This document shows positions 34,052 to 61,555 of a stretch of 61,555 nt of DNA, one piece after another. Origin of the DNA: Beijerinckiaceae bacterium (GTDB taxonomy: Bacteria > Pseudomonadota > Alphaproteobacteria > Rhizobiales > Beijerinckiaceae); NCBI GenBank assembly GCA_031291515.1, contig JARLIW010000099.1, forward strand, positions 1-61,555, in the 5' to 3' direction. The notes under the pieces were generated by a model, which searched no databases, had not been told where the DNA came from, and was given only the letters and a program-made list of their open reading frames with translations. The position numbers and the translations under genes are program-made. Within the stretch, counting starts at the first letter, position 1. Each line of letters starts with the position of its first letter.

Positions 34052-34067
34052 GGTGATCTCCTCGGCG

Positions 34068-35048: not shown

Positions 35049-35080
35049 AGGTTCCTCCGTTCGTCGGAAGAAAATATGTT

Positions 35081-38321: not shown

Positions 38322-38379
38322 TCTATGGGCTGGCGCGCGGCAGACGGGACGCCGCCGCGCGGATGTTAAAAAGCGGGGC

Positions 38380-39882: not shown

Positions 39883-39930
39883 GATACCTCCCCAGTAATT
39901 TTACGTGTTTCGTTTACGTGCCGGTCTTGT

Positions 39931-41988: not shown

Positions 41989-42081
41989 GCGGCGTCCTCT
42001 TCAACTGTATTTCGCGGGCGCGCCGGACCACCGCGGCGCCCTATGCGGTCTATTGAAAACCGGGATGGTCGCGGACGGCTT

Positions 42082-43293
<1,212 letters not shown>

Positions 43294-43448
43294 GAGGCGT
43301 CTCCGGGCAGGGCGTGGGGAGCGGGATCAAGGTGTTGAACCAGCACGCGCGCGGGGCGGCCCATCCAAGCAGCAGGTTGGTCTTGCCACTTGGATGTTTG
43401 AAAAATGTTCTCATCATCCCTCTTTATGCAGGGGCCAGCTCCGGGCCG

Positions 43449-43498
43449 TTGACACGTTGATCCGCTGACTACTATTAATCGGTCGATCGGTCAATTAA
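43449..43498 (+). promoter_or_regulatory. paaG promoter with a PaaR-type palindrome
   Basis: TTGACA (43449-43454) and TATTAA (43473-43478) with an 18-nt spacer precede paaG. A 24-bp imperfect palindrome at 43475-43498 (ends TTAAT/ATTAA, centre CGATCG, 18 of 24 positions symmetric) overlaps the -10 and contains the repeated CGGTC element. Operators of TetR-type PaaR regulators are palindromes rich in ACCG/CGGT. The adjacent paaR-like gene makes this the likely target, possibly controlling paaJZ divergently too. Confidence 0.6.
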
Positions 43499-43534
43499 GC
43501 TGCGCTCAAGACCGCCGGCCGAAGGGAGGAGACG

Positions 43535-44317
43535 ATGGAACCTGTCCTCATCGAGAAGGAGAGTGGCTGGACGAGGATCGTTCTCAACCGGCCGGACAAA
43601 TTGAATTCGTTCGACGGCGCCATGCACGCCGCTTTGGCCGCCGCTCTCGATCGGGTCGCGGAGGATCGCGATTGCCGGGCAGTGGTGCTGACCGGGGCTG
43701 GCCGCGGTTTCTGCGCGGGCCAAGACCTCGCGCTCCGCCAGGTAGAGAAAGGCGGCGAGGCACCTGATCTTGGGCAGACCGTGGATACGTTGTGGAATCC
43801 GCTGGTGCGCCGGATACGCTCCCTTCCAAAGCCCGTCGTCTGTGCCGTAAACGGCGTTGCCGCCGGCGCCGGCGCCAATCTCGCGCTTTCTTGCGACATT
43901 GTCGTTGCCGCCCGCTCCGCCAAATTCATCCAGGCGTTCTCATCGATTGGTCTCGTGCCAGATTCTGGAGGAACGTTCTTCCTTCCACGGCTCGTTGGCG
44001 ACGCCCGCGCAAGGGCCGTCGCCATGCTGGCCGTTCCAATCGCGGCGGAGCACGCCGAGGCCTGGGGCATGATCTGGAAGGCCGTCGATGATGACGCGCT
44101 CGCTGGCGAGGCCGCGCGCCTTGCGCAGGATTTGGCCGCGCGGTCGGCCCGCGGCCTTGCCCTGATCAAGCAAGCTCTGAACGCGTCCAGGGACAACTCG
44201 CTCGACGATCAGCTCGACCTCGAGCGAGACCTCCAGCGGATAGCGGGACGAACCTCCGAATACGCGGAAAGCGTGAGTGCCTTCCTCGAAAAACGGACGC
44301 CGCCGTTCAAGAAATAA
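43535..44317 (+). CDS. paaG: Ring-1,2-epoxyphenylacetyl-CoA isomerase
   Basis: A crotonase-family enzyme of 260 residues. The blocks LNRPDKLNSFDGAMHAAL, VLTGAGRGFCAGQDLA, AVNGVAAGAGANLALSCD and SIGLVPDSGGTFFLPRLVG match PaaG; the catalytic Asp in VPDSGG distinguishes it from ordinary hydratases, which carry Glu in PE. It converts the epoxide to the oxepin. GGGAGGAG precedes the ATG. Confidence 0.92.
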   Translation: MEPVLIEKESGWTRIVLNRPDKLNSFDGAMHAALAAALDRVAEDRDCRAVVLTGAGRGFCAGQDLALRQVEKGGEAPDLGQTVDTLWNPLVRRIRSLPKPVVCAVNGVAAGAGANLALSCDIVVAARSAKFIQAFSSIGLVPDSGGTFFLPRLVGDARARAVAMLAVPIAAEHAEAWGMIWKAVDDDALAGEAARLAQDLAARSARGLALIKQALNASRDNSLDDQLDLERDLQRIAGRTSEYAESVSAFLEKRTPPFKK

Positions 44318-44587
44318 GTCATGAGCGGCACGCTAGGGCGATGCCCGGTCTACCGGACGTGCACCACCAAAGGAAAGTAGATCGAGATCAAACGTGGAGC
44401 AGCGCAAATCGGTCCTGGCCGAACGGATTTTGCTCTATCGCCCTGGAGCGCGCGGGCCCATGGATGCTTACGAAGACTCGGAGTCTCCTGCCACCAACAG
44501 CCTCGATGCCGGCAAGGTTTTGGCGCCGGAAAGGGAAAATTTTCAATCGCGGACACTCAGCGCGTCAGAAGGCTGGAAGGATTGACC

Positions 44588-45913
44588 ATGAACTCGATGT
44601 CCCTGGCAGATACCGGGCAAACGCTTTTCGATTTGGACGAGCATGCCTCGGTGGACGAGATCCGGTCTTTACAGACTGGGCGTCTCGCTTGGTCGTTGCG
44701 CTATGCCTATGAAAACGTCTCGCACTATCGCAGGGCCTTCGACGCCAAAGGCGTTCACCCAGACGACTTCCGAAATCTGTCCGATCTTTCCATGTTTCCA
44801 TTCACGGTTAAGACGGATTTGCGGGACAATTATCCGTTTGGAATGTTTGCGGTGCCGCGCGAACAGCTCGCCCGCATCCACGGATCGTCGGGTACGACCG
44901 GCAAGCCGGTCGTCGTCGGCTATACCGCCAATGATCTCTCGACATGGTCCGGTCTGATGGCGCGCTCGATCCGCGCGGCGGGCGGCCGTCCGGGCATGAT
45001 GCTGCACAACGCTTACGGCTATGGCCTGTTCACGGGCGGTTTGGGCGCGCATCAGGGCGCCGAACGGCTTGGTTGCGCGGTGGTCCCCATGTCCGGTGGC
45101 ATGACCGCGCGCCAGGTCCAGCTGATCACGGATTTCAAGCCGGAGATGATCATGGTGACGCCGAGCTACATGCTCTCGATCCTTGATGAATTTCGCAAGC
45201 AGGGCCTCGATCCGCGGGCGAGTTCGCTCAAATACGGGATCTTCGGGGCCGAACCCTGGACCAATGCGATGCGCCGAGAGATCGAGGAGGCGTTCGATCT
45301 CGAGGCGACGGATATCTACGGGCTGTCGGAACTCATAGGTCCCGGCGTCGCCCAGGAGTGCATCGAGTCCAAGGATGGGCTTCACATCTGGGAGGACCAT
45401 TTCTACCCGGAAATAATTGATCCACACACCGGAGAAGTCCTTCCTGACGGCGAAATGGGCGAACTCGTATTCACGTCCTTGAGCAAGGAGGCTTTTCCAG
45501 TGGTGCGCTATCGCACACGCGATCTCACCCGTCTGCTTCCTGGCACGGCACGGCCAGGCATGCGGCGCATGGAGAAGGTCACCGGCCGGTCCGACGACAT
45601 GATGATCCTGCGGGGTGTGAACGTCTTTCCGACGCAGATCGAGGAGCTGCTCCTCGCCAGCGGCTGGTGCAGCGGCCAATTCAGCATCGAGCTCAGCCGC
45701 GAAGGGCGGATGGATTGCATGACGATCATTGCCGAGGCGAGGGATCACGTCTGGGATGGCGCCGGCATGCGGGCTCACGCGACGACGTTCGTCGAACGGG
45801 TTAAGGAGACGATCGGCCTCACGACGAAGGTCGTCGTGATTGCGCCCGGAACAGTGGAACGTTCCGAGGGTAAGGCGAAGCGGATTGTCGACAAGAGACC
45901 ACGCCCCGGCTGA
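44588..45913 (+). CDS. paaK: Phenylacetate-CoA ligase
   Basis: An AMP-forming ligase of 441 residues and of PaaK length. The start region SLQTGRLAWSLRYAYENVSHYRRAFD, the P-loop HGSSGTTGKPVVVGYT (about 99-114), DIYGLSELIGPGVAQEC, and RSDDMMILRGVNVFPTQIEE are diagnostic. It activates phenylacetate, and its product phenylacetyl-CoA is both substrate of PaaABCE and inducer for both regulators. It follows paaG after 270 bp, in which I see no gene (a 63-codon frame has no domain). Confidence 0.93.
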   Translation: MNSMSLADTGQTLFDLDEHASVDEIRSLQTGRLAWSLRYAYENVSHYRRAFDAKGVHPDDFRNLSDLSMFPFTVKTDLRDNYPFGMFAVPREQLARIHGSSGTTGKPVVVGYTANDLSTWSGLMARSIRAAGGRPGMMLHNAYGYGLFTGGLGAHQGAERLGCAVVPMSGGMTARQVQLITDFKPEMIMVTPSYMLSILDEFRKQGLDPRASSLKYGIFGAEPWTNAMRREIEEAFDLEATDIYGLSELIGPGVAQECIESKDGLHIWEDHFYPEIIDPHTGEVLPDGEMGELVFTSLSKEAFPVVRYRTRDLTRLLPGTARPGMRRMEKVTGRSDDMMILRGVNVFPTQIEELLLASGWCSGQFSIELSREGRMDCMTIIAEARDHVWDGAGMRAHATTFVERVKETIGLTTKVVVIAPGTVERSEGKAKRIVDKRPRPG

Positions 45914-46124
45914 TTTGCGTTTTCTGGTATTTTGTTGACCGCCCGCTCTGCTAATTGTATGGAGCGCGTGCTTTAATCCAGACCGGTTCTTGACCGGAGC
46001 CGTCGTTTCCGCAACTGGTGGCGCGACGTGGTTGTTTCGCGTGATGCGTGGCGAGTTGTGCGCCGGAGCTGGAGCGGCGATCGTATAGGGACGGCAGCTC
46101 CGGCGTCCGGGGTGAAATAGAATA

Positions 46125-46766
46125 ATGGCGCGACCGAAGGCCAGCGACTACGACGAAAAAAGAGTTTCCATTCTGAGCAAGGCGGCGAGCCTAATCGCTG
46201 AACGAGGCTATGCCGGTGCATCGCTGAGCCTGATCGCAAAGGAATGCGACTTCTCGAAGTCCCTGACCTATCATTACTATCCAGACAAGGACTCTCTGCT
46301 CTTCGATATTATTTTCTGCCACCTCAACGAGTTGGCCGAAACGGTGGAGGAGGCTGCGGCGCGGGCCAAATCGCCGCGGCGCAAGCTGGAGGCCATGGCG
46401 ATCGCGCTTCTCGAAGCCTATCGTGACCACGACGCCGAACATGACGTCCAAATCTCCAGCCTCAAGCTGCTCTCGCCAGACAGGCAAGGCGTGCTGAAAA
46501 ACATCGAACGCCGCTTGGTGCGCATGTTTTCGGCGGTCATCGCCGAATTGCTGCCTTCAGGCGCGAACTCGGACGACCTCCTGAAGCCGCTCACCATGTC
46601 GTTGTTCGGCATGTTGAATTGGCATTACCTCTGGTTCAAGGAAGGCAAGGGAATGGAGCGAGCCGATTATGCGCGGCTTGCCTGCCGGCTCGTCGTTGAC
46701 GGATCGCGGAAGGTTACCGCGAGTCCACCGATAAAGCCGAGGCCGGAGGACGTCGTCCCCGGCTGA
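46125..46766 (+). CDS. paaR: TetR-family regulator of phenylacetate genes (PaaR-like)
   Basis: A protein of 213 residues. The N-terminus DEKRVSILSKAASLIAERGY and HTH SLSLIAKECDFSKSLTYHYYPDKDSLLF resemble PaaR-type regulators linked to paaK in many proteobacteria. It follows paaK by about 210 bp with its own promoter-like hexamers (TTGACC 45935, TATGGA 45958). It probably responds to phenylacetyl-CoA and binds the palindrome at 43475-43498. The symbol is by context and family look. Confidence 0.75.
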   Translation: MARPKASDYDEKRVSILSKAASLIAERGYAGASLSLIAKECDFSKSLTYHYYPDKDSLLFDIIFCHLNELAETVEEAAARAKSPRRKLEAMAIALLEAYRDHDAEHDVQISSLKLLSPDRQGVLKNIERRLVRMFSAVIAELLPSGANSDDLLKPLTMSLFGMLNWHYLWFKEGKGMERADYARLACRLVVDGSRKVTASPPIKPRPEDVVPG

Positions 46767-48554: not shown

Positions 48555-49766
48555 CTACTGCTCAGGGAATCCCCCTGGGTTGACCCCGGTGTCGAAACGG
48601 TCCTTCAAGCCCAATTCCGCCATCACCTCGTCCGTGTGTTCCCCCAAAAGAGGAGGCGGTCTGCGAATCGTCTGCGGCGTTCCGGATAACTTTATTGGAA
48701 ACCCCAAGGTCCGGATCTTCCCCTCGACTGGATGATCGATTTCGAGGACCATCTGCCGCTCGCGAACATGGTCGCTTTGCAACACCTGCTCATAGTTGAG
48801 AATGGGACCAGCCGGGATGCCTGCGTCCAAGAGCGCGGCCACCCAGTCGTCCACGGGCCGCGTGCGGAAAACGGCCTCCAGCAATTCGATGAGGACAAGC
48901 CTGTTGTGCATCCGGCTCTTCACATCCCGAAAGCGTTCGTCCTTCGCGAGATCCGGCCGATCCAGCATCTTGCACAGAGACAACCATAGTTTCTGGTTGG
49001 CGGCTCCGAGGACAAACCAACCGTCCAATGCGCGAACAGCCTGGTAGGGAGCGCTCATCCTATTGGCGGAGCCCATTGGTTGCGGTGGTTGCGCGGTGGC
49101 CCAATATTCCGTCGCCTCCCAAACCGACAGTCCCAACGCGGCATCGAATAGCGAGGCGTCGATATATTGGCCCTTGCCGTTCGTCTGCCGCGCGATCAAC
49201 GCGCATAAAATGCCATATGTCGCGAAGAGTCCCGCACCGAGATCGCCAACGGAAATGCCCGATTTGACAGGCTCCTGGCCAAGAATGCCCATTGCGCTCA
49301 TCACACCAGACATGGCTTGAGCGATCAGGTCGTAACCTGGACGATCCGCCCAAGGGCCGGTCTGCCCGAAGCCCGAGATGCTGGCATAGATCAGCCTGGG
49401 ATTGTGGCGGGACAGCGTTTCGTAATCGATCCCAAGCCGGGCCGAGGCGCCTGGCCGGTTGTTCTCAATCAACACATCCGCCGTCGCGGCAAGCTTGTAA
49501 AACACCTCGCGTCCGGTGGGACTTTTGAGATCCAGCGCCATGCTCCGCTTGTTCCTATTCAGCGCCATGAACCCAGGGCTGTCCAAGCCCTTGCCTCGGA
49601 TCCCCATCGATTTGCGTGTGCTGTCGCCCGATCCCGGCGGCTCGACCTTGATCACGTCAGCCCCCATGTCCCCGAGCAGCATCGCGCAATAAGGCCCCGC
49701 AAGGACTTGACTTAGATCGAGCACCTTTATCCCCGAGAGCGCCGAATTTTTTTCCATGTCTCGCAC
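48555..49766 (-). CDS. CaiB/BaiF-type (class III) CoA-transferase
   Basis: A protein of 403 residues. The start KVLDLSQVLAGPYCAMLLGD followed by MGADVIKVEPPGSGD is diagnostic; the catalytic Asp is in ISVGDLGAGLFATYG (about 180). It moves CoA between acids without ATP. The start is GTG 49766 with GGAGAT 5 nt before. It is first of a three-gene unit and divergent from the SDR at 50042, with a shared promoter region containing TTRGTAT motifs. Confidence 0.9.
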   Translation of the reverse strand: MRDMEKNSALSGIKVLDLSQVLAGPYCAMLLGDMGADVIKVEPPGSGDSTRKSMGIRGKGLDSPGFMALNRNKRSMALDLKSPTGREVFYKLAATADVLIENNRPGASARLGIDYETLSRHNPRLIYASISGFGQTGPWADRPGYDLIAQAMSGVMSAMGILGQEPVKSGISVGDLGAGLFATYGILCALIARQTNGKGQYIDASLFDAALGLSVWEATEYWATAQPPQPMGSANRMSAPYQAVRALDGWFVLGAANQKLWLSLCKMLDRPDLAKDERFRDVKSRMHNRLVLIELLEAVFRTRPVDDWVAALLDAGIPAGPILNYEQVLQSDHVRERQMVLEIDHPVEGKIRTLGFPIKLSGTPQTIRRPPPLLGEHTDEVMAELGLKDRFDTGVNPGGFPEQ

Positions 49767-49840: not shown

Positions 49841-49874
49841 TTGACATGTTAGTATCATGTTTTCATCATACCAA
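49841..49874 (+). promoter_or_regulatory. Promoter with 26-bp inverted repeat in a divergent region
   Basis: TTGACA (49841-49846) and CATCAT (49864-49869) with a 17-nt spacer form a plus-strand promoter. Arms TTAGTATCATG (49849-49859) and CATCATACCAA (49864-49874) around TTTT are complementary at 9 of 11 places. A further TTAGTATATCAG lies at about 49884-49895. The same TTRGTA..ATCAGA type recurs before the ABC-transporter operon near 55787. The FCD-GntR protein at 52386 is the likely binder. Confidence 0.55.
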
Positions 49875-50041
49875 TTACATTAGTTAGTATATCAGATGAT
49901 GTTGGGGGCGCAAGCGTTTGGAGAAGGCGCTTTAAACATCGCGCTTCGCATGGGCCGCCAGAAGAGCCGGGGGTCCTGGGACAGGCCTTGGCGTCTTGAA
50001 GGCTTGCGACCATACACCGGCCATAAGGAGTGACGACAAAA

Positions 50042-50812
50042 ATGAGCGAAAACCTAAAAGGCAAAGTTGCCCTCATCACGGGATCCACAAGAGGGATCGG
50101 CCGGGCCATCGCGATAAGCATGGCGGAGGCCGGCTGCAACATCGTGATCTCGTCGCGGCGGCAAGATGCTTGCGACGATTTGGCTGCCGAGATCAACGCG
50201 CAATCTGATCATGTCAGCGCGCTTGCCTGCGCCGCCAACATCGCCGAGAAAGAAGACCTGCGTCGATTGACGGACGCGACGTTGCAGAAATGGGGCCGGA
50301 TCGATATTTTGATCTGCAACGCGGCCACCAATCCGTACTACGGGACGATGAGCGGCATCAGCGATGACGCGTTCCGGACGATCCTGAGCAACAACATCCT
50401 GTCGAACCATTGGCTCGTCCAATTCGCGCGGCCGGGGATGGTCGAGCAGCGGGACGGCGTCATAATCGTCGTTTCGTCGATCGGCGGCCTTCGCGGTTCA
50501 TCCGTCATCGGCGCCTACAACATCTCAAAAGCCGCCGACATGCAGCTAGTTCGCAATCTTGCAATGGAGCTCGGACCCTATGGCATCCGGGTCAACTGTT
50601 TGGCTCCAGGTCTGATCAAAACCGACTTCTCAAAGGCGATTTGGAACGACGCGGAAAAGCGGCGACAGCATGAATCGCTTACACCGCTGAGACGTATCGG
50701 CGAACCCGCGGATATCGCGGGCGCGGCCCTTTTCCTGGCCTCCCCGGCCAGCCGGTTCCTCACGGGGCAGACGATCGTGGTGGACGGGGGAGCCACAATC
50801 GTAGGGCTGTGA
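50042..50812 (+). CDS. Short-chain dehydrogenase/reductase
   Basis: A classical SDR of 256 residues: TGSTRGIGRAIAISMAEAG (about 14-32) for NAD(P), CNAAT around 90, and the active-site YNISKAA (Y-x-x-x-K) near 155-161. It ends with VVDGGATIVGL. ATG 50042 follows AAGGAG; a GTG at 50030 lies inside that signal and is unlikely. It probably oxidises an alcohol or reduces a ketone in the island pathway and is followed by an amidase gene 62 bp on. Confidence 0.85.
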   Translation: MSENLKGKVALITGSTRGIGRAIAISMAEAGCNIVISSRRQDACDDLAAEINAQSDHVSALACAANIAEKEDLRRLTDATLQKWGRIDILICNAATNPYYGTMSGISDDAFRTILSNNILSNHWLVQFARPGMVEQRDGVIIVVSSIGGLRGSSVIGAYNISKAADMQLVRNLAMELGPYGIRVNCLAPGLIKTDFSKAIWNDAEKRRQHESLTPLRRIGEPADIAGAALFLASPASRFLTGQTIVVDGGATIVGL

Positions 50813-50874
50813 GCCCGTTACGTCAGCCAAACTCACAAATCCAGCATGTCTCAACTCGCATCAAAGGCTCCCAG

Positions 50875-52344
50875 ATGGATCTCGCCCAGCTCTCCGCAAC
50901 GGAAACCACCGGTCTCGTGAAGACCGGCCAGTTGAGCATCGTCGAAAGCATAACGGCTTCCCTTGACCGGGTCGCGATGGGAAATCCGCTCATCAACGCC
51001 GTCTGCACGGTGAACCATCGCGCACTGGAACAAGCGGCGCAAGCCGAAGCCAGGCTCCGGTCCGGCCAAGCGGCGCGGCCCCTCGAAGGCGTCCCTTTCG
51101 TGGCCAAGGATAATCTTCTGACGTCCGGCCTTCTGACGACGTTCGGCTCGTTGTTGTACCGGGACTCGGTCCCGGCCGAAACCTCTCTTTCGGTTCAGCG
51201 CATGTTGGACGCCGGCGCGATCCTCATCGGCAAAAGCAATCTCCCGGAATTCGCCCACGACATCAACAGCGTCAACGCGCTATTCGGGCTCACCCGCAAT
51301 CCCGTCGACTTGAACGTGACCGCCGGTGGATCGAGCGGCGGCACGGCGGCGGCGGTCGCGGGCGGCCTGACCCCTGTCGGACTCGGCACGGACTTGGGCG
51401 GATCCATCCGAATCCCGTCGTCCTTCTGCGGCATCTGTGGACTGCGGCCCTCGGCTGGCCGGATCCCGGTCCATCCATCGGAGTTCGCATGGGACACGCT
51501 TGTCGCCCACGTGCATGGGCCGATGACGAGGACGGTGCCTGACTTGGGCCTGCTCCTTTCCGTATTGGCGGGTCCCGACGATCGTGACCCGATGTCCCTG
51601 CCGGCCTCGCCAGCGGACTATGTTGCGGCGGCCTCCGGCAACCACGACCTCCTCGGCCGCCGGGGTGGCTTGTTGATGAACCTCATGGACCTCGTCGCCA
51701 TCGACGCGGAAGTCGAGAGACTTGTGAGCCAGGCGGCGTCCGACCTATCGGACCTCGGGTGCGTCCTGGACAATGCAAGGCTCGACGCAAGTCACGTCAA
51801 GCCGGCCGTCAACGGAACGCGTGCGTTCGGCATGGTGGCACGCTACGCGGAGATCTACCGGAACTCCGGAGAGGTACTATCGGCCGCTTTGAAATCGCAG
51901 GTCGGCGGCGCGATGGGCGTCGACCTTCTGGCCCTCGCGGACTCCGAACGACACAGGAGCATGTTTTACCATGCCGTCGCGCGGCTCCTTGAACACTTCG
52001 ATTTCCTCGTTTGCCCAACCGTTGCCGTGCCTGCGATGCGGCTCGACGAACCACTGCCCCGCAGTGTTGGCGGCCACCCCATCTCGAGCTTCTACGACGT
52101 GTTCTACGCTTGTTACGCCTTCAGCCTGACTGGCCTCCCCAGCGTCTCGGTGCCATGTGGTTTCACATCAGCCGGGCTGCCGGTCGGTCTGCAGATCATC
52201 GGCCGCAGGCATCGTGACGACAACCTGCTTGAGGTCGCGTCATGCTATGCGCGTCACCATCCCGAGCATTTCCGGAGTCCGGGCATTTCAACCTCGATCG
52301 CAAATGACGCGTCACTGGCCACCCGCGGTGTCACGATAGGCTGA
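50875..52344 (+). CDS. Amidase-signature family hydrolase
   Basis: A protein of 489 residues with the full Ser-cisSer-Lys triad: Lys78 in FVAKDN, the Gly/Ser-rich TAGGSSGGTAAAVAGG (about 149-164; Ser153) and nucleophile Ser177 in GTDLGGSIRIPSS. It hydrolyses an amide to acid and ammonia. The start MDLAQLSATE (ATG 50875) is typical; the signal upstream is weak, suggesting coupling to the SDR. Its presence suggests that the imported substrate has an amide bond. Confidence 0.87.
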   Translation: MDLAQLSATETTGLVKTGQLSIVESITASLDRVAMGNPLINAVCTVNHRALEQAAQAEARLRSGQAARPLEGVPFVAKDNLLTSGLLTTFGSLLYRDSVPAETSLSVQRMLDAGAILIGKSNLPEFAHDINSVNALFGLTRNPVDLNVTAGGSSGGTAAAVAGGLTPVGLGTDLGGSIRIPSSFCGICGLRPSAGRIPVHPSEFAWDTLVAHVHGPMTRTVPDLGLLLSVLAGPDDRDPMSLPASPADYVAAASGNHDLLGRRGGLLMNLMDLVAIDAEVERLVSQAASDLSDLGCVLDNARLDASHVKPAVNGTRAFGMVARYAEIYRNSGEVLSAALKSQVGGAMGVDLLALADSERHRSMFYHAVARLLEHFDFLVCPTVAVPAMRLDEPLPRSVGGHPISSFYDVFYACYAFSLTGLPSVSVPCGFTSAGLPVGLQIIGRRHRDDNLLEVASCYARHHPEHFRSPGISTSIANDASLATRGVTIG

Positions 52345-52385
52345 GGTCGGGTGCCCAAGCCCAATGTCATCGACATCAGGAACGT

Positions 52386-53174
52386 TCACTGACCGCGACG
52401 ATTCCTGTTCTCAACGAGAGCAAGCAATGGGACGAAGTCGTCGCGCTTGATGTTGGTATGATCTTGCATGAGCTTCTGCACCAGATCGGCTTCGCCTTCG
52501 CTGATGGCCTTGGCAATCGCAAGGTGCTCGGCAGCGGAAACCTTCAACCGACCCGGTATCCCGAACGTGTGATTCCGGTAACTCCCGATTCGCTGGCGCG
52601 TCTGTCGCGCCGCCGTTTCGAGGTATCGGTTCTTCGCGCCCTTGTAGATGGCATCATGGAAGGACTGGTTGGCGGCCAGATAGTCATCGATCGAAATATC
52701 CTCAGCCCGTTGAGTCGCTTCCGCGAGAGCGGCCAGTTCCGCTCGTTCCTCAAAGCTCATGCGCAACGCGCAATATCGGGCACACAAACTTTCGAGGTCA
52801 CCCATAAATTCGAAAAGCTGGATTAGTTCGGACGCATCCATGCTTGTGACGTAACTTCCCGACCTCGGCCGGACATCGACAAGGCCGACCGACGCAAGAC
52901 GTCCGATCGCATCACGGACAGGCATGCGTGACACGTGAAAACGAGCCGCCAGTTCCCTTTCATCGATTCTCGCGCCTGGTGCCAAGCGGCCCAAGATGAT
53001 GTCGGCTTCGAGCTCGCGGACGATCTCGTCCCGCGAGAACGAATCCTTTTCCTCTCCGAGGCCTACATCAGTGGCTGGCGGGGCGGACGAGGACGCGCGA
53101 TCCGCCTTGACACTGCGTCGTGGCTTAGGTTGGACCTCGATTTGCGACTTCGATTGCGAGATTTTTTTCAACAT
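52386..53174 (-). CDS. GntR-family regulator with FCD domain
   Basis: A protein of 262 residues. After a low-complexity N-terminal tail of about 50 residues comes the winged HTH (IVRELEADIILGRLAPGARI, then ELAARFHVSRMPVRDAIGRL at about 71-90), then the all-helical FCD ligand domain with a metal-type His pattern (NQSFHDAIYKGAKN, SAAEHLAIAKAI, MQDHTNI). Such proteins sense organic acids. It closes the ABC-transporter operon, 16 bp after the binding-protein gene. It is the only regulator of the island and probably binds the TTRGTAT motifs. Confidence 0.87.
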   Translation of the reverse strand: MLKKISQSKSQIEVQPKPRRSVKADRASSSAPPATDVGLGEEKDSFSRDEIVRELEADIILGRLAPGARIDERELAARFHVSRMPVRDAIGRLASVGLVDVRPRSGSYVTSMDASELIQLFEFMGDLESLCARYCALRMSFEERAELAALAEATQRAEDISIDDYLAANQSFHDAIYKGAKNRYLETAARQTRQRIGSYRNHTFGIPGRLKVSAAEHLAIAKAISEGEADLVQKLMQDHTNIKRDDFVPLLALVENRNRRGQ

Positions 53175-53190
53175 TATCAATGCGCTTCCA

Positions 53191-54129
53191 TCAATTCGCC
53201 TGCGCCCGCATAAGTGGCTTGTCGTAAACAAAATCGTCCCAATTCACCGCTTTTTTCAATTTGCCCGATTTCGCCAACTGGGCTTCGACGGACTTAAGAT
53301 ACGCGACGGAGTCCGGCATCATCCTAACCTTGTAGTCCATCTTGGCCATCAAAAGCTTCGTTAAATCAAGATCGAGCTTTAGAAACGAAGAAACCTCCTG
53401 CGCCGCTTGGTCCGGGTTCGAATGGATGAAATCGGTCGCTTGCACGAGCGCCTTCATGAATGAGGCCGCCGCGTCTGGATTCCGTTCCGCCCACGTCTTG
53501 TTCAGATAGACGAAACTGCGGTTGTTGATGATCCCGATGTTGTCTCTTATCAGTTTAGCCCCCTTCACTGATCGTAATATCCGGGTCAACCAAGGCTCGT
53601 AGGCTGCCGCGGCGTCGATGTCCCCCCGCTCCAAGGCCGCCAGCATTTCGGGAGGCTCGACCGGCACAATATTGTAATCATTAGCGTTCAGGCCGAGCTT
53701 GCTTATGAAGGCATTCCAAAACACCTCGCTAGCGCTTCCCAGCACAACGCCGATGCGCTTGCCTTTGAGTGCGGCCACGTCGGCCACGCCCTTTCCGACT
53801 ATGCCCATGTATTGCTGAACCTGCAACATTTCCGCCGCAACAACCACGTCGGGATCCAAAGCATTCGTCTGGATCCCGGCCTGTTCGCCTCCGAAGACAG
53901 CCTGGACTTGGTTCCTAACGAGGAAAGGGACCATCGCGGAACCGGAGGCTCCTGTATTCAGCGTAACGTCGAGTCCATTCTTCTCGAAGAAACCGCCCAC
54001 CTTTCCAATGTAAAACGCGGCAAGGGACGGGTCGATGCCGGTTGCCACGGTCATCTTGATCGCGGAGGCGGCATGGGATTGCCCCGCGAGCGACATCATC
54101 AACAATATGGAAACCAACAGCTTTTTCAC
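53191..54129 (-). CDS. ABC transporter substrate-binding protein (SsuA/TauA/NMT1-like), first copy
   Basis: A periplasmic protein of 312 residues with a signal peptide (MKKLLVSILLMMSLAGQSHA, cut before ASAIK). Its NMT1/SsuA-like fold has VGGFFEKNGLDVTLNTGASG, ALKGKRIGVVLGSASEVFWN and PEMLAALERGDIDAAAAYEPW. The ligand class ranges over sulfonates, nitrate, pyrimidine precursors and aromatic acids. The start is GTG at 54129 with GGAGAA upstream. It is about 55% identical by eye to the second binding protein at 58430. Confidence 0.87.
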   Translation of the reverse strand: MKKLLVSILLMMSLAGQSHAASAIKMTVATGIDPSLAAFYIGKVGGFFEKNGLDVTLNTGASGSAMVPFLVRNQVQAVFGGEQAGIQTNALDPDVVVAAEMLQVQQYMGIVGKGVADVAALKGKRIGVVLGSASEVFWNAFISKLGLNANDYNIVPVEPPEMLAALERGDIDAAAAYEPWLTRILRSVKGAKLIRDNIGIINNRSFVYLNKTWAERNPDAAASFMKALVQATDFIHSNPDQAAQEVSSFLKLDLDLTKLLMAKMDYKVRMMPDSVAYLKSVEAQLAKSGKLKKAVNWDDFVYDKPLMRAQAN

Positions 54130-54173
54130 ATGATTTCTCCGTGCCGTGTCGTGATGAATTTCGTTTGTCGAGT

Positions 54174-54980
54174 TCAGGTGACCGGGCCGTAGCGGTGCGC
54201 AAAACGGTAAATGCCCATTCTAAACAGCCGATCGGCGGCGAATCCGAGCAAGCCAAGCGTGAGAAGGGAAACGAAAATGTCGTCGACCAGCATGAAAAGC
54301 CGCCCGTTCCACAGCATGACGCCCAGCCCGTGCGGCGCGGAAATCATTTCCGCCGCGACAATCGTCGTGAACGAATTCGCCATGGCGAGGCGCATTCCGG
54401 TCAAGATGAACGGAACCGTCGCCGGCAAAGCAACAAGGGTGTACATCTGCCATCGCGTGGCCCCGAGCGCGAGCGCCGCGCGCGTCATGTTCTTGTGAAT
54501 GGATGCAACACCGGCAGCCGTGTTCAAGATGACGATGAATATCGTGGTGTAAACGATCAGGAACACCTTTCCTTCTTCGCCGATCCCGAACCAGATAACG
54601 GCGATGGTGATCAAAGCCGTGGCGGGGATGAAGCGGAGGAACTCGGTCCAGGGCTCGACCAGGCGTCGCACCGATGCGAAACTCCCAATTGTAAGACCTA
54701 TGGGGATGCCGAGCGCCGAACCAAGGAAAAAGCCGAGAAAGATCCGTTGAAGACTTGCAAGCATGTCGATCTCCAGATCGCCACTGCGCAGAAGCTCCCA
54801 GGCCTTCACGAAGACTTCGATCGGAGGCGGGAACAGAATCGACTTCACGAGGTAAATCGACGCCAAGTGCCATGCGATGAACAGTGCGGAAAAACTGACG
54901 AGGTAAGGCAGAATGCCGCTCGCAAGGCGGAACGCCCACGTCGTCTTCACATGAATAGTCGTGACAGCAAAAGTGCTCAT
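54174..54980 (-). CDS. ABC transporter permease (SsuC/TauC-like)
   Basis: An inner-membrane protein of 268 residues with about six membrane segments and the transport-permease loop typical of BPD transporters (ALALGATRWQMYTLVALPAT, about 175-194, EAA-type motif). It overlaps the ATPase gene by four bases (ATGA at 54977) and is 44 bp before the binding-protein gene. Confidence 0.9.
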   Translation of the reverse strand: MSTFAVTTIHVKTTWAFRLASGILPYLVSFSALFIAWHLASIYLVKSILFPPPIEVFVKAWELLRSGDLEIDMLASLQRIFLGFFLGSALGIPIGLTIGSFASVRRLVEPWTEFLRFIPATALITIAVIWFGIGEEGKVFLIVYTTIFIVILNTAAGVASIHKNMTRAALALGATRWQMYTLVALPATVPFILTGMRLAMANSFTTIVAAEMISAPHGLGVMLWNGRLFMLVDDIFVSLLTLGLLGFAADRLFRMGIYRFAHRYGPVT

Positions 54981-55768
54981 ACCGGCTCCTGGATGCGCTT
55001 CCCCGCGCGGTTAACTTCATGACCCACCGCACGCTCGATCCGTGCGTAGTAATCGACATAGGTCAAATCTGACCGAGACCGCTCGTCACCCATCTCGATT
55101 TCGATCACCTGCTGCAATGTGCCGCCTGGGCCGGCACTCATAATCCCGACTCGGGAGCCAAGCGTGATTGCTTCGTCGATGTCGTGGGTGATGAAAAAGA
55201 TCGACGCCTCGGTGGCGCGCCATATCTGACGAAGCTCCCGCTGCATGGTCGCGCGGGTCTGCGCATCCAATGCCCCGAACGGCTCGTCCATCAGAAGAAT
55301 CTTCGGTTGGTTGGCCAAAGCCCGCGCGACCTGGATCCGCTGCTTCATGCCACCGGACAACTCCGCTGGATATTTGTCCTGCTGCCCGTCCAATCCCACA
55401 AGACGCAGGTACTCCATCGCCTTTGGCCGGTATATTTTCCGCGGAAGCCGCCGCAACCGTAACCCGAATTCGATGTTCTCCAGCGCCGTGAGCCAAGAAT
55501 ATAGCGAGTTGTCGCCTTGGAACACGACGCCGCGATCGCGAGAGGTTCCCGAAATCGGTTCGCCGTCGAGCAATATCTCGCCCGTGGTCGGAGCTTCGAA
55601 TCCGGCCAACAGCGACAAAATGGTCGTCTTGCCGCACCCCGACGGACCGAGGAGGCAGAAAAACTCTCCCCGCTTCAATTCCAGTTCAAACCCCCGAAGG
55701 GCCGGAACCCGTCGTCCGCTCTGGGTGTCGTACGATTTTCCCACATTTGAGAAACGAATGAGTGACAT
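54977..55768 (-). CDS. ABC transporter ATP-binding protein (SsuB/TauB-like)
   Basis: A nucleotide-binding subunit of 263 residues: Walker A GPSGCGKTT (about 39-47), signature LSGGMKQRIQVARAL (about 138-152), Walker B ILLMDEPFGALD and the switch His in FITHDIDEA. It is first in a four-gene unit (ATPase, permease, binding protein, GntR regulator). The promoter region is shared with the divergent SDR at 55883. Confidence 0.92.
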   Translation of the reverse strand: MSLIRFSNVGKSYDTQSGRRVPALRGFELELKRGEFFCLLGPSGCGKTTILSLLAGFEAPTTGEILLDGEPISGTSRDRGVVFQGDNSLYSWLTALENIEFGLRLRRLPRKIYRPKAMEYLRLVGLDGQQDKYPAELSGGMKQRIQVARALANQPKILLMDEPFGALDAQTRATMQRELRQIWRATEASIFFITHDIDEAITLGSRVGIMSAGPGGTLQQVIEIEMGDERSRSDLTYVDYYARIERAVGHEVNRAGKRIQEPV

Positions 55769-55786
55769 GTCTGGGCATCTCCGTTA

Positions 55787-55825
55787 TTTTGGTACTATCA
55801 GACATTAAAACTAGTATGCAAAGAT
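55787..55825. promoter_or_regulatory. Divergent control region with TTRGTA/TAGTAT motifs
   Basis: Between the ABC operon and the SDR, TTGGTACTATCAGAC (about 55788-55802) and CTAGTATGCAAAG (about 55812-55824) face each other; they resemble the TTAGTATATCAGA and TTAGTAT/ATACCAA elements at 49849-49895. The shared element suggests joint control of both divergent promoters by the GntR protein. No strict palindrome is present here. Confidence 0.4.
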
Positions 55826-55882
55826 TTTTTTCGCCGATATGGTCGGCGGCGACAGGATAAATCAGCTAGGGGCGAAGTGCGC

Positions 55883-56665
55883 ATGGATCTCAGGTTGAAC
55901 GGAAAACGCGTGGCGGTCAGTGGCGCGACAAAAGGCATAGGCCGGGCCGTTGCCTATGCGTTCGCTGACGAGGGTTGCGCCCTTTTGCTGGCGGCCCGGG
56001 ACGGAGATGCCCTCCGGGACACCGCGGTGGATTTGAGGGAAAGCCGCGGCGTGGCGGTCGAGACATATCGCGGCGACTTGTCGACCTCCGAACATCAGCT
56101 GGGCTTCGCACGAGCCTGCGCCGGGACCGACATCCTAATCAATTGCGCCGGGTCCAACCCGGCGGGCGGCATCGAGGACATCAGCGACAAGGTTTGGCGC
56201 GACTCCTGGGATCTGAAAGTCTTCTCCTACATAAACATAACGCGTGCCGTCTTCACAGACATGAAGACCCGCGGCGGTGGCGTCATTGTGAACGTCATCG
56301 GGAATTCAGCTGACCGCATGAACGACAAGTACATCTTGGGCAGCACTGGAAACCTCGCGCTAGCCGGGCTGACGAAAGCGTTGGGAGCCAGGTCTCCCGA
56401 TTTCGGTGTGCGCATCCTCGGCGTACATCCGGGCGCCACGGCAACAGATAGAATCCAGGGTCTGTTGCGGGATTGGAGCATCGGCAAATACGGAACCCCG
56501 AACCATGCGGACGACGTGCTTGCGAGCATGAATTTACCGTTCGGCCGCTTGTGCGACCCATCGGAAATAGCCGACGCCGTCGTTTTCCTCGCCTCACCCC
56601 GGGCAAGCTACGTCAGCGGAACGATTCTAACGGTGGATGGCGGCGCGACAAACCGGAACAATTAG
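55883..56665 (+). CDS. Atypical short-chain dehydrogenase-like protein lacking YxxxK
   Basis: An SDR-fold protein of 260 residues. The cofactor motif SGATKGIGRAVAYAFADEG and the NAG-like INCAGSNPAGG are intact. At the catalytic site, where Y-x-x-x-K should precede the helix, the sequence is KYILGSTGNLALAGLTKAL: Gly replaces Tyr and Asn replaces Lys (the aligned S-x-S-K is GSTGN). It ends with LTVDGGATNRNN. It may catalyse a different reaction or act as a binding protein. The start at 55883 or GTG 55877 cannot be settled. Its last 53 bases overlap the convergent isomerase gene. Confidence 0.78.
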   Translation: MDLRLNGKRVAVSGATKGIGRAVAYAFADEGCALLLAARDGDALRDTAVDLRESRGVAVETYRGDLSTSEHQLGFARACAGTDILINCAGSNPAGGIEDISDKVWRDSWDLKVFSYINITRAVFTDMKTRGGGVIVNVIGNSADRMNDKYILGSTGNLALAGLTKALGARSPDFGVRILGVHPGATATDRIQGLLRDWSIGKYGTPNHADDVLASMNLPFGRLCDPSEIADAVVFLASPRASYVSGTILTVDGGATNRNN

Positions 56666-57312: not shown

Positions 57313-58422
57313 CTATTCTTTGATCCAATTCGTGTGCCTGTCGACATAATCCCAATCGACGGCGAGCCCCAGGCCCGGTCCCTTGGGTGCCGCGACGCGG
57401 CCTCCGCCATCGATGGCGGTCGGCGCGTCGAAACCCGGCACGACATAGTCGGCGACCGGAACACAGCATTCGTAGTAAGATTCTAGCTTCTGAGACAGCG
57501 CCACGTGGAGCCCAGCGATCGAGTTGGGCTCCGGGCCGAAGGCGTGGAACTCGCAACGTACGCCATATGGCGCGGCCGCTTCGACGACCTTCCGGCAAAA
57601 CGTGATGCCTTGGCGTCCAGCGTCGAGGCGAAGTCCAACGGGACATTGGCGCGAGGCGGCCTCCAAATAGTCGCCAAAGCTCCAATACAACGCGTCGGTG
57701 GCGAACACGGGAATGGCCAGCTGCCGGGATAACCATGGATAGCCATGACGCTGCGAATGGGGCAACGGATCCTCCAGCCACAGATAGGAGAGTTCCTCCA
57801 ATCCCCTGCCGACCTTAAGCGCCTCGAACAAGTCGTAGCGGCCCAGCGGATCGAACATCAAAGCGAACTCGTCGCCCACGGCGCGGCGGATGGCTGCGCA
57901 GGCGTCGAGATCCAGGCGGGGATCCCCCCACAGATGCGGTTTGTAACCGCGATGACCCTCCTGCTTGAAACGCAGCACGTGTTCGATCACCTGATCCGCC
58001 GAGGTCATCGAAAGTTCTTCGCGCGACACGCCGTAAGCGGGTAGCGAGAGATGCCTTGTTCCCAAAAGCGCATGAAGCGGCATCCCGAGGCATTTGGCTT
58101 TCGCGTCCCACATTGCGTTGTCGACGGCGGCGATGGCAACGCAGGACGTGCCATTCCATGCTGCCGTCTCCATGACGCGTTCCGCCGCGATCGGATGATG
58201 GCGAACATCGATCCCGACTAGCGCCTCGCGGAACCAGGCGGCGATCGCAAGTGCCATGGACGTCGCCGAGGGTGAGTCATTCCAGGAGACGCTCACGCCA
58301 GACTCGCCGCAATCGGTCCTGACCCTGACGATCGTCGCGGTTTGGGGCCCACCTTGCCCGAGCCATTGGACCATGGTTCCATATTCGAGGACGCCGACAT
58401 CGATGCCAGTGACAAGAGCCAT
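57313..58422 (-). CDS. Enolase-superfamily enzyme (mandelate racemase/muconate lactonizing type), copy 1
   Basis: A protein of 369 residues with capping domain and TIM barrel. The second-strand base motif is K161-x-H163 in GYKPHLWGD instead of the common KxK; metal ligands are Asp191 (MFDPLGRY), Glu217 (WLEDPLP) and Asp243 (FATDALYW). EFHAFGPEPNSIAG near residue 300 resembles a seventh-strand acid/base site. It abstracts a proton alpha to a carboxylate: racemase, dehydratase or cycloisomerase. It and copy 2 share the KxHLWGDxRxDxDACAxIR block. Confidence 0.85.
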   Translation of the reverse strand: MALVTGIDVGVLEYGTMVQWLGQGGPQTATIVRVRTDCGESGVSVSWNDSPSATSMALAIAAWFREALVGIDVRHHPIAAERVMETAAWNGTSCVAIAAVDNAMWDAKAKCLGMPLHALLGTRHLSLPAYGVSREELSMTSADQVIEHVLRFKQEGHRGYKPHLWGDPRLDLDACAAIRRAVGDEFALMFDPLGRYDLFEALKVGRGLEELSYLWLEDPLPHSQRHGYPWLSRQLAIPVFATDALYWSFGDYLEAASRQCPVGLRLDAGRQGITFCRKVVEAAAPYGVRCEFHAFGPEPNSIAGLHVALSQKLESYYECCVPVADYVVPGFDAPTAIDGGGRVAAPKGPGLGLAVDWDYVDRHTNWIKE

Positions 58423-58429
58423 TGATCCC

Positions 58430-59392
58430 TCAATCTTTCACGGTGACGGCAGCGGGGGCGACCTTGCGAAGAAGATCGGGATAGACGAATGCCTTCCAGT
58501 CCACGGGCTTGGTGAGCCGGCCGGTTCTCCGCAATTCGGCTTCGACGCCGTGCATATGGTTCAGCGTTGCGTCGTCTAGGCGCACGCCAAACGTAATCTT
58601 CGTAAGGAAGACCTTCGTTTCCTCCAAGTCCAACTTCAAGAACGTGGACACGACCTTCGCGGCGGCGCCGGGATCATTATGGATCACGTCCGTCGCTTCC
58701 ACCAAGGAGCGAACGAACAGTTCAGCGGCCTTGGGGTTGTCTTGCGCCCAGCCGCGATTCACATACAAGATTGCGCGCGGCAGCATGATTCCAACGTTGT
58801 TCCGCAGGACTTTGGTGTTGGGGACGGACTTCACCGCCCGGGACAGCCACGGCTCCCAGCACACGAACGCATCGATGTCCCTACGAGATAGGGCGGCGAC
58901 CATTTCCGGCGGCTCGACGTTGACGATCGTGTAGTCTTTGGGGTCGAGCGAAAACCTCTTGATGATCGCGTTCCAGAAGACCTCGCTTCCACTGCCGAGC
59001 GACACACCAATGCGCTTGCCCTTCAAGTCGGCGAGACCGGGCGTGTCCCGGCCCACGACGCCCCACCAGTCGTCCGCGGCGGCCGTTTCGCCAACCAAGA
59101 CCACATTGGGGTCGAGATTGAAGTTCGTGATGCCCGCCTGTTCGGCGGCAATGGCCGCCTGACTTTGGTTTTTGACCAAGTATGAGACCATCGCGGAGCC
59201 ACTTGGGCCGGTATTCAACTTCACGTCGAGACCATTCCGTTTGAAAATACCCATGGATTGGGCGACGTACGCGGTGGCGAAGGCCGGGTCGACACCGGTG
59301 CCGAGCGCCATGCTGGCGGTTTCCGCACGGGCCGCGTTGGCTTGCGACGTCAGGCACATCAGAAACGCGGCGATCCGAAGAATGTTCTTCAC
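58430..59392 (-). CDS. ABC transporter substrate-binding protein (SsuA/TauA-like), second copy
   Basis: A periplasmic protein of 320 residues with a signal peptide (GTG start 59392; VKNILRIAAFLMCLTSQANA). A GGAAAAAG signal lies before the GTG; the longer open frame to 59623 has no signal peptide. It parallels the first copy throughout (GIFKRNGLDVKLNTGPSGSAM, DLKGKRIGVSLGSGSEVFWN). No permease or ATPase gene is next to it, so it probably shares the transporter at 54174-55768. It lies between two enolase genes and in line with them. Confidence 0.86.
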   Translation of the reverse strand: MKNILRIAAFLMCLTSQANAARAETASMALGTGVDPAFATAYVAQSMGIFKRNGLDVKLNTGPSGSAMVSYLVKNQSQAAIAAEQAGITNFNLDPNVVLVGETAAADDWWGVVGRDTPGLADLKGKRIGVSLGSGSEVFWNAIIKRFSLDPKDYTIVNVEPPEMVAALSRRDIDAFVCWEPWLSRAVKSVPNTKVLRNNVGIMLPRAILYVNRGWAQDNPKAAELFVRSLVEATDVIHNDPGAAAKVVSTFLKLDLEETKVFLTKITFGVRLDDATLNHMHGVEAELRRTGRLTKPVDWKAFVYPDLLRKVAPAAVTVKD

Positions 59393-59408
59393 GGGGATCT
59401 TTTTCCTT

Positions 59409-60521
59409 CTATCTGGAGAACCAGTGCGTGTGTCGATCCAGCTCGGCCCAATCGACATCGAATCCAAGTCCCGGACGTCCGGAACCCGACGCGACACCGG
59501 CGTTGAAGACCACGCCCGAGCGCAAACCTGGAACCTCGCCGAGGCCACATGTCGTATGATGTTCGAACCAGCGCGTGGTGGCGCCGGCAAGCGCGAGACT
59601 AAGACATGCTTCGACGCCGCCACGAGGCGCGAACGACGAAATGTCCAGCTCGGCTTGATTGGCTTGCGCGACCGCGGCGAAGTTCGCCCAAGCGACGATT
59701 CCGGTCCGGAGCGGATTAAAGCGAAGACCCTGGACGACGCCGCCGCGTGTCGCCCGGTCGCATTCCGAGAGGCTCCAGCCTTGGGACTCGTTGACCACGA
59801 CGGGGACGTTCAGCCGCGACGCAAGCCATTCGTAGCCGGCATGATCCAACGGCGAAATCGGATCCTCAAGACGCGTAAACGCGAGATCCTCCAGAGCGCG
59901 GCCAACCTGCAACGCCTCATTCCGGCGGTAGCGGCTGATCGGATCCAGCATGAACGTGATGCCGGAACCGAACGCATCCCGGATGCGGGCGCAGGCGTCG
60001 ATGTCGCGCCGCGCATCGCCCCACAAGTGGAGTTTGAAAGCCCGAAAGCCGTCACGCACGTGACCCTCCAACAGGTCCAGATATTGTTCAACATGTTCGA
60101 AGCCGAACTCTTCGGACGAGACGACGTAAGCGGGTATCGAGGTGCGCTTCCGGCCCAGCAACACCGCGGTGGGAACCTTCCAGAGGTGCCCCGCAAGATC
60201 CCATATCGCCAACTCGAGAGCGCATGCCGCGAGGGACATCCCCGCGGCCGCGCCGAGGCTCTGGCAGCGCGCCGCGATCTCGTAGGCCGCCAGCGCGTCT
60301 AGCCCGGTCAAGGCTTCGGCGAACAACGTGGATGCCGCCTCGGCATAAGACGCGTCCGATTCGAGCACGCTCCAAATCACGCCAAGGCCGCGCGCGCCGC
60401 CTTCAGCCTCCACCCGCGCCACCAGAACCGCCCGGCGAAACCGAAGGGAGCCGAGCTGGACCGGCCCTCGGCCACCATCGTATTCGACGGCTCCGAACTG
60501 AACGCGTGTGATCTGACTCAT
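59409..60521 (-). CDS. Enolase-superfamily enzyme, copy 2
   Basis: A protein of 370 residues. The base motif is K163-x-H165 in AFKLHLWGD; metal ligands are Asp193 (MLDPISRY), Glu219 (RLEDPIS) and Glu245 (VNESQGW). The third ligand is Glu rather than Asp as in copy 1. The seventh-strand region has SSFAPRGG in place of the EFHAFGPE of copy 1, so the two paralogues probably differ in substrate or stereochemistry. GGGGAGG precedes ATG 60521, which overlaps the end of copy 3 by four bases. Confidence 0.85.
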   Translation of the reverse strand: MSQITRVQFGAVEYDGGRGPVQLGSLRFRRAVLVARVEAEGGARGLGVIWSVLESDASYAEAASTLFAEALTGLDALAAYEIAARCQSLGAAAGMSLAACALELAIWDLAGHLWKVPTAVLLGRKRTSIPAYVVSSEEFGFEHVEQYLDLLEGHVRDGFRAFKLHLWGDARRDIDACARIRDAFGSGITFMLDPISRYRRNEALQVGRALEDLAFTRLEDPISPLDHAGYEWLASRLNVPVVVNESQGWSLSECDRATRGGVVQGLRFNPLRTGIVAWANFAAVAQANQAELDISSFAPRGGVEACLSLALAGATTRWFEHHTTCGLGEVPGLRSGVVFNAGVASGSGRPGLGFDVDWAELDRHTHWFSR

Positions 60522-61555
60522 GACGCGCCTCCCCAATCAAATCCGGGCGCCATGAAGCCCCTGAGCGTTCCCTCATCGACGGTGACGCCGAGACCAGGGC
60601 CATCGCCGCGGATCACCTCGCCTCCGACCGATTCGAGATCCGCAACGGCGGGCGACTCGGACACCCAAAGCGACCCCAAGCTCACGCCCCAGTCGACGGC
60701 GGGAAGCGCACAGGCGGCATGAACGATGGCGGCGGTCGCCAAGGGCGATTCAACCAGCATGGCGAGATTGACGCGCAAGCCCCGCGCCTGTGCCAAGGTC
60801 GCGGCCCGCACCAAGGCCGCGAGGCCGCCGAATTTCGCCGCCTTGAGGCTGAGTCCGCTCGCCCCGCCCCGCGCCGCGAGCCGCTCGATGTCCTGATCGC
60901 CATGAACCGCTTCATCCGCGCCGACAGGAGCGGGCGAGGCCTCGGCAACTTGGGCCAAACCCTCGAAATCGGCGGACGCGACAGGTTGCTCGATGAAGTT
61001 CACGGCAAACGCCGCGACACCGCGAGCGAAGCGCCTCGCGGAGGCGACATCCCATGCCATGTTCGCGTCCACGGCGATCGCCGCCGTGGGTCCGAGCGCG
61101 CGACGGAGCGCGGCGACGGTTTCGATCTCCCGCTCCAATTCCGCGACACCGACCTTCAGTTTGAACGCGCGGAACCCCTCGCGTTGCAGCGCCAACGCTT
61201 CGGCGACGTCGGCATCGAGGTCCGCGGAACCGCCGATCACGCGAAGGACCAAGGCGCGTCTCCGAACCGCGCCGCCCAAAAGCTCGACGACGGGCTTGCC
61301 ACCCAGCTTTCCCGCGAGGTCCAACACGGCCATCAGCACCGCGGACTTGGCCCCGCCATTGGCATAGACACGGCTAAAAGCCGTCTCCAAACGGTCATGA
61401 TCAAACGGGGACGCGCCCAGCAACGGCGTGCGCAAATGCTGTTCGATCATCGCGACCATGCCGGCAAGCGTCTCGCCCGCCATGATCGCATCGGCGCCGG
61501 ACTCACCCCATCCGACGTGCCCGCTCCGGCTGCGGACACGGACGAAGAGCGTTTC
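60518..61555 (-). CDS. Enolase-superfamily enzyme, copy 3, cut by the window edge
   Basis: The frame is open to the right edge and the visible protein starts inside the capping domain (ETLFVRVRSRSGHVGWGES), so the true start is beyond 61555; the ATG at 61483 is internal. About 345 residues are seen. It has a standard K-x-K (FKLKVG), Asp in VDANMAW, Glu in FIEQP, Asp/Glu in GADEAV and Lys in SLKAAKFGG, as in muconate-lactonizing and dipeptide-epimerase subgroups. It is more distant from copies 1 and 2 than they are from each other. First visible gene of the operon. Confidence 0.85.
   Translation of the reverse strand, partial: ETLFVRVRSRSGHVGWGESGADAIMAGETLAGMVAMIEQHLRTPLLGASPFDHDRLETAFSRVYANGGAKSAVLMAVLDLAGKLGGKPVVELLGGAVRRRALVLRVIGGSADLDADVAEALALQREGFRAFKLKVGVAELEREIETVAALRRALGPTAAIAVDANMAWDVASARRFARGVAAFAVNFIEQPVASADFEGLAQVAEASPAPVGADEAVHGDQDIERLAARGGASGLSLKAAKFGGLAALVRAATLAQARGLRVNLAMLVESPLATAAIVHAACALPAVDWGVSLGSLWVSESPAVADLESVGGEVIRGDGPGLGVTVDEGTLRGFMAPGFDWGGAS

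Follow-up and report, generated by a model that had tools for sequence, protein, structure and literature searches.

The closest described relatives of the regulator considered here belong to the FadR/FCD subfamily of GntR proteins, whose operators follow the pattern TKGT-N2/3-ACMA, with G at the variable position preferred by an arginine at position 28 of the helix-turn-helix (HTH) and with extra, weaker half-sites beside the main site (available text of PMC4494728). In the available account of Atu1419, an FCD regulator of the VanR group that controls an aromatic catabolic region in Agrobacterium fabrum, the operator is the 10-bp palindrome ATGTATACAT, and changing G3 together with its partner C8 abolished binding (PMC7797058). 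That protein is a tetramer of two dimers, each of which can hold a palindrome; its palindromes are separated by 190 bp or 109 bp, and DNA looping by the tetramer is possible (PMC7797058). NanR of E. coli is described as binding repeated GGTATA with several adjacent dimers, cooperatively via an N-terminal extension, and AlkR of Pseudomonas aeruginosa, also of the VanR group, as acting at a divergent promoter with the short palindrome ATTGTCAGACAAT (available parts of PMC8012715 and PMC12042122, respectively).

The locus analyzed here shares with the FadR/FCD subfamily, as far as PMC4494728 describes it, the combination of a GntR and an FCD domain, divergent promoters, and, as a candidate operator, a short AT-rich GT/AC palindrome; this type of site is like that of Atu1419, and its arrangement of short palindrome and divergent promoter is like that of AlkR. 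It differs in the element that accompanies the main site. Whereas the extra boxes in the accessible part of PMC4494728 lie 7–12 nt from the site center, here a complete palindrome accompanies the first at a 21-bp center spacing, and the palindrome centers are 21.5 bp apart, far from the distances given for Atu1419. AlkR, in the same partial account, has one main palindrome plus two weak extra sites, with a half-site unlike the one found here. The regulator, like NanR, carries an N-terminal stretch (residues 1–46, low-confidence in the structural model), but the NanR repeats as described are direct and spaced by less than half a turn, whereas the units here are palindromes about two turns apart. 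A search for NanR-type direct repeats of minimum length 8 returned only GTTAGTAT, 35 bp apart, at promoter A and none at promoter B, and direct GGTATA repeats were rejected as the operator for their misfit in spacing. Neither a 21-bp operator pair nor CTGGTATACCAG, a sequence of the regulator's homologues treated below, was found in the literature searched, a scope outside which most subscription journals lie.

Gene context and regulator

The window, that is, the whole stretch of DNA analyzed, is a complete contig (C179; 61,555 bp) of a 3.83-Mb genome in 334 contigs that is 87.6% complete. Promoter A is flanked by a family III CoA-transferase gene (48555–49766, minus strand) and an SDR oxidoreductase gene (50030–50812, plus strand) with an amidase gene downstream of it (50809–52344, plus strand). 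Flanking promoter B are an ABC transporter operon on the minus strand, which runs from the ATPase gene (54977–55768) through the permease gene (54174–54980) to that of an NMT1/SsuA-like substrate-binding protein (53191–54129), and a divergent SDR oxidoreductase gene on the plus strand (55877–56665). An earlier note on this DNA had named the products flanking each promoter in the same way, and these gene identities are borne out. The FCD-domain GntR gene (52386–53174, minus strand) has its ATG at 53174, 16 bp behind the substrate-binding gene and on the same strand, and therefore probably closes the ABC operon. Both promoters have AT-rich cores, with a GC fraction of 0.32 and 0.27 compared with 60% GC for the window, and a promoter-like TTGACA-17-CATCAT (10/12; 49841–49869, plus strand) stands ahead of the SDR-amidase genes.

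Several neighboring features were recorded. The substrate-binding gene at 53191–54129 has a paralogue at 58430–59383 in the same cluster (48% identical), which in the window has no adjoining ABC genes. Three enolase-superfamily genes, mandelate racemase/muconate cycloisomerase-like, occupy 57313–61483, and a related locus described below, L051, has them too. The cluster is adjoined at 31362–46766 by a phenylacetate-type gene set with a PaaX gene and a TetR-family gene.

The regulator consists of an N-terminal GntR winged HTH (PF00392, E = 3.3e-20) and a C-terminal FCD domain (PF07729, E = 2.6e-23), and a search of its own genome, at 87.6% completeness, gave two matches at E ≤ 0.001, itself included. 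Its recognition helix reads SRMPVRDAI. With positions placed by eye on the numbering in the available text of PMC4494728, it has Arg at HTH position 28, in common with its L051 relative, and Met at position 39, where the homologues listed have Thr. The best of five AlphaFold2 models, built from two input sequences (mean pLDDT 71.7), contains six confident C-terminal helices and a low-confidence seventh at residues 248–265, a count that bears on membership in the VanR (six) or the FadR (seven) subgroup of FCD regulators. H177, H221, and H243, candidate histidines of the metal-binding site, are invariant between the window GntR and that of L051.

Promoter motifs and the operator of homologous regulators

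The earlier note had proposed that an imperfect 26-bp inverted repeat at promoter A and a motif near it resemble motifs at promoter B, and that all of them answer to one regulator, probably the FCD-GntR protein. The letters are present: the repeat at 49849–49874 reads TTAGTATCATG-TTTT-CATCATACCAA, with arms complementary at 9 of 11 positions, and the further motifs TTAGTATATCAG, TTGGTACTATCAGAC, and CTAGTATG are found at 49884–49895, 55789–55803, and 55811–55818. The repeat itself, however, does not exceed chance (P = 0.24 in the intergenic region and 0.12 in the AT-rich core), and its degenerate form has no other match in its own genome at up to three mismatches. It is also longer than the 10–13-bp sites of the group, a length norm that we infer, and it was rejected as the operator itself. 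Blind comparison of the two promoter regions was not significant either by local alignment (P = 0.73 and 0.235) or by their best common 12-, 16-, and 20-mers (P = 0.85, 0.71, and 0.47). The pattern YTRGTAY is seen five times, compared with an average of 0.2 when the sequence is shuffled locally; this motif had been picked after the sequence was viewed, and the expectation was therefore built from other genomes. The likeness between the promoters asserted in the note is recovered through the homologue-derived site and spacing, and not by direct comparison.

Overlapping genome sets were searched for matches to the GntR protein: 100 relatives, 385 members of the class, 397 members of the order, and 398 members of the phylum, with only the HTH part as the query in the last set. 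Identity to the window GntR is at most 44% among the matches listed for the relatives and the class (47% in a separate alignment), reaching 43% for L113–L126, so that none of these is a close ortholog. Removal of identical proteins from 91 scanned loci left 80 distinct regulators; TNGTATACNA lies within 450 bp upstream or 250 bp downstream of 25 of them, and the other 55 have no site there. In the first 48 loci, TNGTATACNA gives 32 matches compared with 4 in reversed sequence, both strands being counted. Directly after the first T, Arg28 regulators have G in 9 of their 12 half-sites and other regulators in none of 44, which agrees with the correlation between position 28 and G in the available part of PMC4494728. 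The three Arg28 regulators that have sites come from one genus and are thus not independent, and two more in that set have no site. In a held-out set there are two Arg28 regulators, one with TTGTACACCA and the other without anything similar.

A second palindrome accompanies many of the homologue sites at a fixed distance. Over 28 sites in 20 clusters, its mean score at a center distance of 21 bp, taken on the better side, is 5.01 of 8, a value reached in 0 of 500 flank shuffles; the mean over all distances from 11 to 50 bp is 2.77. Taking the first member of each cluster, a score of at least 5 is found at 21 bp in 15 of 20 clusters, and the pair is lacking in 5. For the held-out set, sixty more loci of the same order, drawn from the listed matches, yielded seven sites, one of which was removed as similar to an earlier one; all six others score at least 5 at 21 bp (mean 5.67; 0 of 500 shuffles), with two of the six, L205 and L219, belonging to genera already present in the first set. 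Elsewhere in the phylum, 29 TTGTATACAA sites in other classes (14 of the 25 genomes searched) have a mean of 2.55 at 21 bp and no peak, and the seven of these within 700 bp of an FCD hit have a mean of 2.14, again with no 21-bp peak. On these 29 sites, the spacing rule failed as a phylum-wide feature. On these sequence comparisons, the 21-bp pair is a feature of the regulator's clade and not of all such sites.

The Arg28 homologues are nearest in specificity to the window GntR; their main CTGGTATACCAG sites give 3/8 at 21 bp, and their second site gives 5/8. The composite TTGTATACAA-N13-G-N-ATGCAA, with at most one mismatch, matches in 3 of 289 genomes, with no control match among the matches listed, and in one of the three, L173, the site adjoins an FCD-type match by coordinates.

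Palindrome pairs at promoters A and B

The scan of the window sought two TNGTATACNA-like sites, each allowed to skip one central base, with centers 20.5–22 bp apart; the site and the spacing come from the homologues, and the tolerance for a central base and the range of spacings were fixed after the window had been viewed. Promoter B takes rank 1 in the 61.5-kb window (14/16) and promoter A rank 2 (13/16), and three unrelated places reach 12/16.

Palindrome 1 of promoter B is TGGTACTATCA at 55790–55800 (TGGTA-C-TATCA; 7/8 to TNGTATACNA), and palindrome 2 is TAGTATGCAA at 55812–55821 (7/8), with its center 21.5 bp from that of the first. The latter includes most of CTAGTATG, and its right half, ATGCAA, fits the second-site consensus ATRCAA of the homologues, the variable place of which is A in 9, G in 6, and T in 1 of 16 sites. 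At promoter A, palindrome 1 is TAGTATATCA (reverse TGATATACTA; 7/8) at 49885–49894 and palindrome 2 is TCATCATACCA (reverse TGGTATGATGA; 6/8) at 49863–49873, the centers again being 21.5 bp apart. Palindrome 2 of promoter A overlaps both the right arm of the inverted repeat and the promoter-like TTGACA-17-CATCAT. None of the four palindromes (7, 7, 7, and 6 of 8) is perfect, those at 55790 and 49863 need the central base omitted, and three of the four have A, on one side, at the place of Atu1419 G3/C8.

By the pair scan, CTAGTATG thus falls in a second candidate operator and the right repeat arm in another one. The earlier note had misread the anatomy of the motifs, in that the right repeat arm, TTAGTATATCAG, TTGGTACTATCAGAC, and CTAGTATG all belong to one or the other of two palindrome pairs; the left arm TTAGTATCATG (49849–49859, plus strand), which misfits the 21-bp spacing, is a possible extra half-site. 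As a candidate operative unit, a pair of short palindromes per promoter is better supported than the 26-bp repeat.

The pair scores are rarely reproduced by dinucleotide shuffles. When the intergenic regions were shuffled, the score of promoter B was reached in 0 of 2000 and that of promoter A in 4 of 2000 cases; for the AT-rich cores, the counts were 0 and 10 of 2000. In 30 shuffles of the whole window, a score of 13 was reached twice and 14 never. A weighted model built from the homologue second sites, with a weight of our choosing, places promoter B first and promoter A third among 382 candidates, with shuffles reaching the score of B in 0 of 400 cases and giving P = 0.01 to 0.02 for A. Across spacings, the weighted scan of promoter A is without a sharp peak (18.1 at 21 bp, 18.4 at 32 bp, and 17.8 at 24 bp). 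Judged by its single best TGGTATACCA site, promoter A is not unusual (P = 0.145), and promoter B is matched in 0 of 1000 shuffles. Palindrome 1 of promoter B is the best noncoding TGGTATACCA match (9/10), equalled by one coding match at 8527. 

Elsewhere in the window, TGGTTCGACAA and TGGTCGAACAA stand 21 bp apart at 16359–16390, upstream of an OmpR-type response regulator gene (16536–17282), a pair that ties for third in the scan.

In the 3.83-Mb genome, exact TRGTANTATCAGA occurs once, at promoter B, and exact TRGTATATCAGA once, at promoter A. The near-matches of these motifs number 2 and 4, compared with 11 and 8 for control patterns; since the controls have more, the counts show rarity and not enrichment. 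Likewise, CTGGTATACCAG with up to two mismatches is not enriched in this genome (37 per strand vs 197 in the control). A wider regulon in the genome was considered and discarded, the nearest other match (CTGGTATATCAG, contig C327) falling in coding sequence.

A predicted local regulon and related islands

Because the palindrome pairs match the pattern beside homologues of the GntR protein, both promoters are probably controlled by that protein. We assign a probability of about 0.7 to the reading in which the two divergent promoters form a local regulon of the cluster's own FCD-GntR, acting through the predicted operators. As a target of this protein, promoter B is much better supported than promoter A. 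The FCD-GntR would bind as two dimers per divergent promoter, on imperfect TNGTATACNA-type palindromes, and the dimers may sit side by side on each promoter: centers 21.5 bp apart correspond to about two helical turns and hence to nearly the same DNA face. An Atu1419-like tetramer or NanR-like N-terminal cooperativity are conceivable modes of such binding. At promoter A, the pair overlaps the promoter-like sequence ahead of the SDR-amidase genes. The GntR would probably repress both divergent units and be released by a catabolic ligand, for which a carboxylate or a CoA-pathway intermediate is the likely candidate. With gntR probably closing the transporter operon, the protein would regulate its own expression at promoter B. 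The proposal of one FCD-GntR for both promoters, raised in the earlier note, gains independent sequence support from the homologue-derived operator type and spacing, the operon position, and the presence of only one further match to the regulator in its genome, and is weakened by the lesser A pair and by the pair at the L051 promoter, which is not significant.

Part of this pattern could have a simpler origin. The motifs at promoter B might be only a sigma-70-type −35/−10 pair, TTGGTA-17-TAGTAT, and those at promoter A AT-rich promoter sequence, making a shared regulator unnecessary. TTGGTA at 55789 and TAGTAT at 55812 are indeed separated by 17 bp, both cores are AT-rich within a 60% GC window, and TTGACA-17-CATCAT is present in promoter A. 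Yet TTGGTA-TAGTAT scores 8/12 by manual count and went unlisted by the promoter scan (threshold 9), dinucleotide-preserving shuffles reproduce the pairs rarely or never, and promoter elements leave the fit to the homologue-derived 10-bp site and spacing unexplained. We regard this explanation as improbable; since operator and promoter may overlap, a sigma-70 element at these places is in any case compatible with control by the FCD-GntR. Still less probable is the binding of the 26-bp repeat and related motifs by another regulator encoded on the contig, such as the TetR-family protein (46125–46766). TetR proteins often bind palindromes of ~26 bp, and the end of this gene is 3.1 kb from promoter A, but the repeat alone is at chance level, the gene adjoins the phenylacetate-type set, and the region upstream of it (45914–46124) contains one CTGGTAT, no pair scoring at least 12, and no TATCAGA.

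It is also rather unlikely, on the present figures, that promoter B carries a true GntR operator and promoter A a chance likeness, the two not being co-regulated. Such a division would account for the weaker palindromes of the A pair (6 and 7 of 8), its ordinary best single site (P = 0.145), its weighted score (P = 0.01 to 0.02), and the equal peaks elsewhere in its spacing scan; the second rank of the A pair in the window, the 4 of 2000 intergenic shuffles that reach its score, and the single genomic occurrence of TRGTATATCAGA, at promoter A, argue instead for the two-promoter regulon of the FCD-GntR.

Beyond this cluster, there is a slightly better than even chance that a clade of FCD/VanR-type GntR proteins, in this order and its relatives, follows a fixed operator grammar, with a strong and a degenerate palindrome whose centers are 21 bp apart, adjacent dimers on one DNA face, and HTH residue 28 setting G or T, and that the window cluster applies it at two divergent promoters. 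The catabolic control itself is ordinary in kind, and the new element is the spacing of paired palindromes in the clade. What began as a visual hunch becomes a testable two-promoter regulon, and the spacing rule could find operators of a large, little-studied group of GntR proteins, for which single 10-bp sites are too weak alone.

With the GntR protein alone as the query, no relative was found in the genome_contigs collection, and the 1654 plasmid records with a match are all below 60% identity. The two binding-protein paralogues retrieved 62 loci from genome_contigs, of which only L051 (JADZED010000054.1) retains the wider gene set, with a GntR 56% identical to that of the window; L109 encodes a 34% match to the regulator, and the sequence ahead of its ATPase gene lacks a site of at least 8/10. 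Among 59 related loci, 2 (L051 and L052) have a site of at least 8/10 upstream of the ABC ATPase, compared with 28 for an in-gene control that is not fair because coding sequence is conserved. The L051 operon is preceded by TCTGATATGCCAGA (516–529), with TATCAGA on the reverse strand, a string found in the window at promoters A and B only; of the other 8/10 sites in L051, two are in gaps (1749 and 4174) and two in coding sequence. Of the 1024 ten-letter palindromes, 3 outscore TGGTATACCA and 6 equal it when scores are summed over the three promoters. The L051 promoter thus carries palindromes related to those of the window, but its 21-bp pair is not significant (P = 0.17), so the conservation in related islands, which the earlier note had named as a check, is partial. 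L051 (1–12059), titled as an Acidobacteria MAG, is the closest relative of the island found, and transfer or mis-binning is possible; the MAG titles behind L055 (Bordetella parapertussis) and L060 (Asaia bogorensis) look doubtful.
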